Assembly (NCBI RefSeq): GCF_030066995.1 | Contig: NZ_JASJAP010000002.1 | Location: forward strand, 124,001-188,000 | Source of the DNA: Erythrobacter sp. | Lineage (GTDB): Bacteria > Pseudomonadota > Alphaproteobacteria > Sphingomonadales > Sphingomonadaceae | Length of the DNA: 64,000 nt | Reading direction: 5' to 3' | Shown here: piece after piece, positions 10,858 through 12,509 of the stretch | Position numbering within the stretch: the first letter of the stretch is position 1 | Layout: each line of letters opens with the position of its first letter | The notes under the pieces: model-generated | Told to the model about the DNA's origin: nothing | The model's database searches: none | Seen by the model: only the letters and a program-made list of their open reading frames with translations | Translations under genes and position numbers: made by a program

Positions 10858-12509
10858 CACATCCTGAAAACGCCAAACGCGGGCCGATCTGCAATCGGAG
10901 CCTCGAGCGTCGCAGCAAAAGCCAGCCCTAGCACGTCCCTCGTCTGCACGGGGTCGATCACGCCATCGTCCCACAAACGCGCGGTCGCGTAGTATGGGTT
11001 GCCTTCATCCTCGTATTTCTGGCGGATCGGCGCTTTGAAGGTTTCGGCTTCTTCCTCGCTCCATGTGTCGGCATCGCGGTGGACGGTTGCGAGGACGCTC
11101 GCGGCCTGTTCGCCGCCCATCACGCTGATGCGCGCATTGGGCCAGGTGAACAGGAAGCGCGGGGAATAGGCGCGCCCTGCCATGCCGTAATTGCCCGCGC
11201 CAAAGCTGCCGCCAATCACCACGGTGATCTTGGGCACAGTGGCGGTGGCAACAGCGGTGACGAGCTTCGCGCCGTGCTTGGCAATCCCTTCCGCCTCATA
11301 CTTCCCGCCGACCATGAAGCCGGAGATATTCTGCAGGAACAGCAGTGGGATGCGCCGCTGGCAGGCAAGCTCGATAAAGTGCGCGCCTTTGACCGCGCTT
11401 TCAGAGAACAGCACGCCGTTATTGGCAAGGATCGCCACCGGCATCCCCCAGATATGCGCGAAACCGCAGACCAGCGTGGAGCCGTAGTGCTGCTTGAACT
11501 CGTGAAACTCGCTGCCATCGACGATCCGCGCGATCACCTCGTGCACGTCATAAGGCGCGCGCACGTCATCGGGGACGATGGCGTAGAGGTCTTCCGCATC
11601 GAACTTGGGCGGGCGCGGGTCACACATTCCGCTGTGAACTCCTGCGAAAGCAGGAGTCTGGTGCGGCATATGGGCTCCTGCTTCCGCAGGAGCGCACGGG
11701 TTTCCGAGGTGGCTGACAATATCGCGCACTATCGTCAACGCGTGCTCGTCATTTTCCGCGAGATGGTCGACCACGCCCGATTTCTTCGCATGAAGATCGC
11801 CGCCGCCCAGATCCTCGGCGCTGATTTCCTCGCCGGTCGCGGCTTTCACCAGCGGAGGGCCTGCAAGGAAGATCGTGCCCTGATTGCGCACAATCACCGT
11901 CTCGTCGGACATGGCCGGCACATAGGCCCCGCCCGCCGTGCAGTTGCCCATCACACAAGCGATCTGCGGGATGCCGAGCGCGGACATGTTGGCCTGATTG
12001 AAGAAGATGCGCCCGAAATGGTCGCGGTCGGGAAACACCTCGGCCTGATGCGGCAGGTTCGCGCCACCTGAATCGACGAGATATATGCAAGGGAGACGGT
12101 TCTCCTGCGCGATCTCCTGCGCGCGCAGATGCTTCTTGACCGTAATCGGGTAATAGGTGCCGCCTTTGACGGTGGCATCGTTGCACACGATCATCACCTG
12201 ACGGCCCGACACGCGCCCGATCCCGCAGATTAGCGAAGCGCCGTTGATGTCGTCTTCATACATGCCGTTCGCAGCGAGTTGGCCGATTTCGAGAAAGGGC
12301 GAGCCGGGATCGAGCAGGCGCTCGACGCGCTCGCGGGGCAGCAGCTTGCCACGCGACACATGCCTCTCACGCGAGCGCTCCGGCCCGCCGAGAGCGGCTT
12401 CGGCAACGGTCGCGCGGAGCTCCTCGGCCAGCGCCCTGTTATGATCAAACCGCGCCTCGGCGTCAGGCGCTTCGCGGTCGAGCTTGGAAGTCAGAACGGG
12501 TGCGGTCAT
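10857..12509 (-). CDS. methylcrotonyl-CoA carboxylase beta subunit (carboxyltransferase)
   Basis: The 550-residue protein has the two crotonase-like halves of an acyl-CoA carboxyltransferase. Typical segments include VKGGTYYPITVKKHLRAQEI, VDSGGANLPHQAEVFPDRDH, GNCTAGGAYVPAMSDE and GSFGAGNYGMAGRAY. With a biotin-carrying alpha subunit it carboxylates 3-methylcrotonyl-CoA in leucine degradation. The pairing with isovaleryl-CoA dehydrogenase upstream supports this over propionyl- or geranyl-CoA carboxylase. The ATG at 12507-12509 follows AGGGAG. About 24 residues between HLGNP and CDPRPP are encoded by a double palindrome and look inserted in frame; without them the length fits the family. No alpha subunit is in the window. 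Confidence 0.85.
   Translation of the reverse strand: MTAPVLTSKLDREAPDAEARFDHNRALAEELRATVAEAALGGPERSRERHVSRGKLLPRERVERLLDPGSPFLEIGQLAANGMYEDDINGASLICGIGRVSGRQVMIVCNDATVKGGTYYPITVKKHLRAQEIAQENRLPCIYLVDSGGANLPHQAEVFPDRDHFGRIFFNQANMSALGIPQIACVMGNCTAGGAYVPAMSDETVIVRNQGTIFLAGPPLVKAATGEEISAEDLGGGDLHAKKSGVVDHLAENDEHALTIVRDIVSHLGNPCAPAEAGAHMPHQTPAFAGVHSGMCDPRPPKFDAEDLYAIVPDDVRAPYDVHEVIARIVDGSEFHEFKQHYGSTLVCGFAHIWGMPVAILANNGVLFSESAVKGAHFIELACQRRIPLLFLQNISGFMVGGKYEAEGIAKHGAKLVTAVATATVPKITVVIGGSFGAGNYGMAGRAYSPRFLFTWPNARISVMGGEQAASVLATVHRDADTWSEEEAETFKAPIRQKYEDEGNPYYATARLWDDGVIDPVQTRDVLGLAFAATLEAPIADRPAFGVFRM
11638..11693. repeat. REPIN-like inverted pair of palindromes inside the carboxylase frame
   Basis: Two 20-nt hairpins lie 16 nt apart. 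The first (11638-11657) has an 8-bp stem ACTCCTGC/GCAGGAGT with a GAAA loop; the second (11674-11693) has GCTCCTGC/GCAGGAGC with the loop GGAA on the opposite strand. They therefore form an inverted pair, as in REP doublets. The reading frame passes straight through and yields APAEAGAH and TPAFAGVH. No further copy was noticed elsewhere in the window. Confidence 0.8.

Follow-up and report, generated by a model that had tools for sequence, protein, structure and literature searches.

The window analysed here is a stretch of 64,000 nucleotides from an Erythrobacter-like genome of 3.3 Mb (G000). It carries, on its minus strand, a predicted gene for the beta (carboxyltransferase) subunit of methylcrotonyl-CoA carboxylase (MCC), whose unbroken open frame of 550 residues contains a pair of palindromes. 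The features concerned are as follows.

10857..12509, minus strand: predicted methylcrotonyl-CoA carboxylase (MCC) beta (carboxyltransferase) subunit, 550 residues (PF01039, 508.6 bits).
11622..11702, minus strand: codons of residues 270-296, NPCAPAEAGAHMPHQTPAFAGVHSGMC (from sequence and translation, and from comparison with L018, L020, L025, L027 and other loci).
11634..11697, minus strand: REP-type dimer, an inverted repeat pair of 64 bp (23-nt arms, 87%).
11674..11693, minus strand: first hairpin in the coding direction, GCTCCTGC-GGAA-GCAGGAGC, reading A-P-A-E-A-G-A (8-bp stem, codon phase 2).
11638..11657, minus strand: second hairpin in the coding direction, ACTCCTGC-TTTC-GCAGGAGT, reading T-P-A-F-A-G-V (8-bp stem, codon phase 2).
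12946..14172, minus strand: neighbouring acyl-CoA dehydrogenase gene, given for context (PF00441, PF02771, PF02770).

Comparison with solved relatives gave bit scores of 786.2 for AccD1 (4q0g) and 749.6 for PaMCC (3u9r), versus 447.6 for PaGCC (5ikl) and 250.4 for PCC (3n6r). The predicted structure of the gene product matches MCC chains; the product lies nearest to the solved MCC beta subunits, and its two halves are arranged as in the MCC type. In the structure model, the insert site follows the final helix of the first half and precedes the second half. Residues 271-287 have a pLDDT below 50, and this low model confidence at the linker fits a flexible loop. The corresponding linker in Pseudomonas MCC is described as contacting the BT hook of the alpha subunit (PMC4673880).

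The original prediction of two hairpins forming an inverted pair at 11638..11693 was borne out by the sequence, by arm complementarity (87% between 11634-11656 and 11675-11697) and by folding. CTCCTGCGAAAGCAGGAG is located at 11639-11656 and CTCCTGCTTCCGCAGGAG at 11675-11692, and both hairpins have an 8-bp stem, the flanking base pair being counted, and a 4-nt loop. Folding of the strand was clearly better than that of shuffled sequences, both as DNA (z -4.9) and as RNA (z -5.3), with 0 of 200 shuffles as good in either case. Perfect matches to the stem pattern occur in the window at these two sites only, and with up to 3 mismatches the window shows no excess (8 seen, 6.3 expected). The frame reads HLG-NPCAPAEAGAHMPHQTPAFAGVHSGMC-DPRPP across the palindromes; the pair within a translated frame is thus confirmed as an observation, the translation of the insert itself being deduced from open frames.

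Linker length differs between repeat-bearing and repeat-free loci. The search of 37 same-genus genomes yielded 30 loci, the window's own included. At 24 of these the linker is short and repeat-free, such as LGANTGAAKDIALKDPRPP, or LG-ANTGAAKDIALK-DPRPP in L025; the other six are longer, and all six contain palindromic repeats of family A or B. Type A was found in G000 (stems CTCCTGC) and in G001 (other stems), and type B, with ends CCGTTCG..CGAACGG, in G031, G012, G011 and G033. The linker is 27 residues long in the window gene versus 12 in repeat-free relatives of the same genus, so that the net gain is 15 residues and not the 24 or so initially put forward. Alignment with related beta subunits and the open frame both support the proposal that a REP-type doublet entered an enzyme gene with the frame intact: close relatives without the palindromes also lack the extra residues (24 of the 30 loci are without both), and the segment is neither conserved nor family-wide. 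It should be noted that none of the occupied linkers parsed retains the NTGAAK stretch of the empty Erythrobacter linker. The repeat would therefore replace native residues, as a substitute for some of the native linker and not a pure addition to it. We propose this as an amendment, replacement as a process being deduced from these comparisons. Such a replacement is unlike what simple transposition predicts, and we count it against the main explanation given below.

The pair in the MCC gene belongs to a repeat family dispersed in G000. Allowing one mismatch at most, the stem pattern was found at 20 sites in this genome, versus 3 for a reversed control pattern. A 71-nt query around the dimer gave 31 matches at E<=10, corresponding to 21 distinct places in G000, some of them weak, and resident copies 83% identical to the insert exist. 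The A and B inserts tested likewise match dispersed repeats of their own genomes. Type B matches, both strands counted, numbered 67 in G031, 12 in G012, 32 in G011, 6 in G033 and 71 in G138, while the G001 form gave 38 matches in G001 and the G195 form 5 in G195. Location inside genes was assessed by a codon score, which recovered 142 of 156 known in-gene positions (a recovery figure only). Among the 17 of the 21 G000 places tested, one, the window copy, lies within a gene; C9:16549 (apparently a chance match within a different gene), C1:1286455, C6:202676 and C1:1084287 were omitted. Elsewhere, the best matches were scanned (28 B loci, 29 G001 loci, some of them the same place twice, and 5 G195 loci), and in-gene copies besides those in MCC were found in carA (G033), the acyl-CoA carboxylase alpha subunit gene (G012), glyS and uvrA (G001) and glyS (G195). 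Repeat dimers stand in frame in G001 uvrA (L246), G033 carA (L219) and the G012 acyl-CoA carboxylase alpha gene (L232), the carA dimer being located between the two Pfam domains of that gene.

Occupation of the MCC linker extends beyond the genus. MCC loci were collected at the DNA level from same-genus, same-family and named genomes, sets which partly overlap, and 143 of 144 were parsed (L152 was left out; L088, called type A by regular expression, was reassigned to empty). Of these, 128 are empty and 15 occupied (A 5, B 10). Among the 119 proteins parsed from the best 120 of 7999 homologues, 81 are empty and 38 occupied (28 A, 8 B, 2 C). By DNA, A has no relation to B, and C is distinguished by its peptide letters alone (LSLSKG..FDKLS, as against SPFGSS..STSLDTNG for B). 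Occupied loci include those of Erythrobacter sp. WG (L054) and of Sphingorhabdus (L077), Altererythrobacter (L074) and Sphingomonadaceae (L073) MAGs, as well as L110 of Sphingomonas sp. URHD0057, which is occupied by a single arm; single-arm forms persist in both L110 and L208. A perfect stem of at least 6 is missing in 7 of 14 occupied loci, type B hairpins being imperfect, and in 121 of 128 empty ones. In an insertion scan of 223 proteins, aligned from a common N-terminal anchor on (39 of 262 were dropped), all 47 insertion runs of at least 6 residues fall in the MCC linker, one of them (L205) being a 7-residue insertion with none of these repeats. With two unrelated families present, two insertions can be taken as a secure minimum. 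A count of three certain insertions (A, B and C) was dropped, as C is known from protein letters only and may be related to B. Further insertions are probable, given the differing A forms in Erythrobacter, Sphingorhabdus and Sphingomonas.

The history of these alleles appears more complex than a series of fresh insertions. A DNA tree built from 142 rows without the linker, and without L073, requires a minimum of 13 state changes when all types are counted. AU tests on an 84-row DNA set rejected a single origin of A plus B (p 0.0002), L016 with L017 as one clade (p 0.001) and the six Erythrobacter-type B rows as one clade (p 0.0007); five B rows without L035 were compatible with one clade (p 0.094). 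A protein tree of 247 rows, with 46 changes, is poorly resolved and carries no weight here. Identity to the type B insert of G031 is 94% for the insert of G033, 91% for that of G012 and 90% for that of G011. Full-length B copies elsewhere in these four genomes reach at most 88% among the matches listed; short B pieces of 28-29 nt elsewhere in those genomes match fully. Because the B inserts are more alike than the resident copies, yet do not form one clade, the scatter would partly reflect allele exchange or loss rather than fresh insertion. This points to one B insertion in the G031, G033, G012 and G011 group, afterwards lost or exchanged between species, although the flanks bear no footprint of exchange. 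At L019, L021, L028 and L035, B inserts are 90-94% identical to that of L019, and their flanks are no closer than those of repeat-free relatives.

The window's allele could have reached this lineage from a different species, through recombination of a short tract covering the linker. The scatter of type B alleles on the gene tree speaks for such a process, and so do flanks without a similarity footprint, no trace of recombination having been seen around the type B inserts in 150-nt windows. However, the G000 insert is absent from all other parsed loci and proteins, and copies 83% identical to it reside in G000 itself, and we regard this origin as unlikely for the window copy.

A second enzyme gene offers a comparable situation. 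The beta subunit of glycyl-tRNA synthetase (GlyS) was searched in 41 genomes, of which 39 matched, and 30 loci were retrieved; an occupied GlyS served as query, which may favour occupied rows. Inspection by eye placed an insert just before an ELAD-type motif in G195 and in 8 of the 21 loci of the genus; none of the 9 loci representing other families of the order has one there. The occupants comprise CGTC-like hairpins (L273, L275, L276 and L279, and also L269), CCCTCTCCCC hairpins (L274), a form in L280 that has the ends CCGTTCG..CGAACGG but lacks a perfect stem, and two other forms in L277 and L278. By their DNA, three or more of these occupants look unrelated. L279 is the G000 gene itself (C1:835732-838278, outside the window), an open frame of 881 residues with three in-frame palindromic repeats, namely two CGTC-like dimers and one of the CCCTCCCC/CCCCTTCCC type; its two dimers, too diverged for the 71-nt query, are not among the 21 places. 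A further repeat dimer lies just upstream of G000 glyS (C1:835652-835713). In G001 glyS (L274 and L244), three insertions of two families were seen, type A at two sites and a PSPLQGRGLGEG..PLSPTLSPEGER repeat between them.

The codon phase of the leading hairpins is clearly biased. Hairpins with 4-nt loops were scanned in 144 MCC and 31 GlyS genes without use of any peptide motif, and type B was outside the scoring. Each of the 13 GC-core hairpins that lead an insert is in phase 2 and reads P-A-x-A-G (MCC 5, GlyS 8). These 13 are not all independent, L077 and L203 sharing an insert and several coming from one gene. We relied on this figure instead of a count of 14/14 that rested on inserts partly picked by peptide motif. 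Trailing hairpins are in phase 2 in 7 of 10 cases and out of it in 3, and the remaining 22 GC-core hairpins in MCC genes belong to native sequence at other places in the gene and fall in phase 1 or 2. Stop codons were considered as a cause of this bias, which was not supported: among 43 copies outside genes, stop-free frames are as common without the motif (115/134) as with it (96/124), counts that are rough because the motif test flags several frames of a single copy. Since non-genic copies are equally stop-free in other frames, stops alone fail to explain the phase bias. The other phases would encode arms rich in Leu, Arg and Lys or in Cys and Arg, and the filter would thus seem to act on the encoded peptide.

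This bias also bears on an adaptive reading, in which folding during translation, or the docking of alpha and beta, would be tuned by the P-A-x-A-G linker or by hairpins in the mRNA. The fixed phase of the leading hairpin is in line with it, as are hairpins located at the boundary of the two halves with strong RNA folding (z -5.3), the contact of the MCC linker with the BT hook (PMC4673880) and the occupation of one site by unrelated families. Nevertheless, 128 of the 143 parsed DNA loci do without any insert, the unrelated B and C peptides stand at the same place, B stems are imperfect, and the single-arm forms L110 and L208 persist. We regard adaptation as unlikely. An assembly artefact or a chance palindrome is hardly credible, with a contig spanning 476 kb, 20 stem sites versus 3 for the control, and analogous structures in independent genomes.

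We are quite confident that the window holds an inverted palindrome pair of a dispersed family, standing in frame in a predicted MCC beta gene and likely kept only because it landed in an insert-tolerant linker. From a mechanistic point of view, a CGTC-like REP dimer would have been copied into the linker, and about 12 native linker residues, to judge from relatives, would have been lost in the same or a later event. Selection may then have purged insertions that broke the frame or fell in other phases, leaving the P-A-x-A-G phase, a small, Pro/Ala/Gly-rich and predicted flexible peptide; the bias is observed, and selection is its presumed cause. The resulting linker would join the N and C carboxyltransferase halves with the predicted function retained, perhaps with altered alpha-beta docking. 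In related species, at least one unrelated repeat family has entered the same linker, in line with recurrent passive colonisation of a presumably tolerant site.

In-gene REPs are usually listed singly, while here one linker holds unrelated families in different species and glyS adds a fixed site. The question of whether in-gene palindromes are tolerated or used may thus be turned into a comparison across natural replicates. For annotators and modellers, some of the length variation of core enzymes in Sphingomonadaceae is repeat DNA read in frame. A more speculative proposal, which we hold to be rather doubtful, is that dispersed palindromes constitute a standing supply of exchangeable linkers: Sphingomonadaceae would repeatedly replace whole linkers in core enzymes such as MCC beta and GlyS by resident repeats, the one-phase CGTC-like dimer providing a ready-made P-A-x-A-G hinge that retunes subunit docking.

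Several known systems invite comparison. REPINs involve RAYT transposases and occur in hundreds of copies. The window copy resembles them as an inverted pair of short palindromes with a short spacer and differs from them by its 21 places in G000, and by the genome itself, where no Y1_Tnp match was found (PF01797, the RAYT domain, 0 matches at E<=0.001). The same search matched 11 of 61 genomes and 5 of 14 controls. Around Y1_Tnp genes of other genomes, blastn with four repeat forms against 21 stretches (L126-L146) gave hits of 12-18 nt only and no clear copy, and GC-core hairpins were limited to L128, L130 and L144, those of L130 and L144 being of the CTAC..GTAG type. In L130, L137 and L144, Y1_Tnp genes of relatives have CTACCG..CGGTAG hairpins close by, unrelated to the repeats studied here. 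A RAYT as mobiliser in G000 is thus unsupported, which we also count against the main explanation, and so is the name REPIN in its strict sense of RAYT mobilisation, the tyrosine transposase that the original prediction had suggested looking for having given no match.

The CGTC-1 REP superfamily was reportedly the subject of a 2013 study by Di Nocera and colleagues. In the text of PMC3733652, CGTC REPs are presented as mostly alphaproteobacterial, mostly dimeric, without a link to a transposase and sometimes located in genes, examples being the tRNA synthetases of S. alaskensis and Erythrobacter litoralis (spelt "E. lithoralis" there) and uvrA of other species. The window copy is similar in its 8-bp stem, 4-nt loop and dimer form, and in the lack of an associated transposase in the PF01797 search of G000. 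By contrast, it has GTGC/GTGA before the stems where CGTC, TGTC or CCTC is expected, as do most other G000 copies, and its stems start with GC (11674-11693) and AC (11638-11657), with one A-T pair in four positions. Compared with a 3-nt CCA-type tail, CCA follows the first hairpin and CTG the second in its own direction. As it has neither the terminal CGTC nor the expected A-T start of the stem, we call the repeat CGTC-like rather than filing it as a CGTC-1 member.

That a REP can be read in frame in a sphingomonad gene is already known from the text of PMC3733652, which also suggests that in-gene insertions may be neutral in flexible linkers and cites Rickettsia palindromic elements, found in frame inside unrelated, presumably functional genes. 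The present repeats resemble the latter by their in-frame position in MCC beta, GlyS, UvrA, CarA and acyl-CoA carboxylase alpha of several genomes, where translation is presumed from open frames; the host here is Erythrobacter-like, and the likeness is one of kind rather than of compared sequence. The word "carboxylase" is absent from the main text of PMC3733652, and no title or abstract on repeats in the MCC beta linker appeared in literature searches. A further parallel is that of Xanthomonas campestris and X. oryzae, in which different REPs are described at about the same recB site (PMC3733652). Likewise, different REPs here occupy about one site of one gene, but the MCC case spans several genera and unrelated families, in a mapped inter-domain linker and with a fixed phase of the leading hairpin. 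As far as the literature searches show, three things are new: the MCC linker as a site, the presence there of unrelated families in different genera, and the bias in codon phase.
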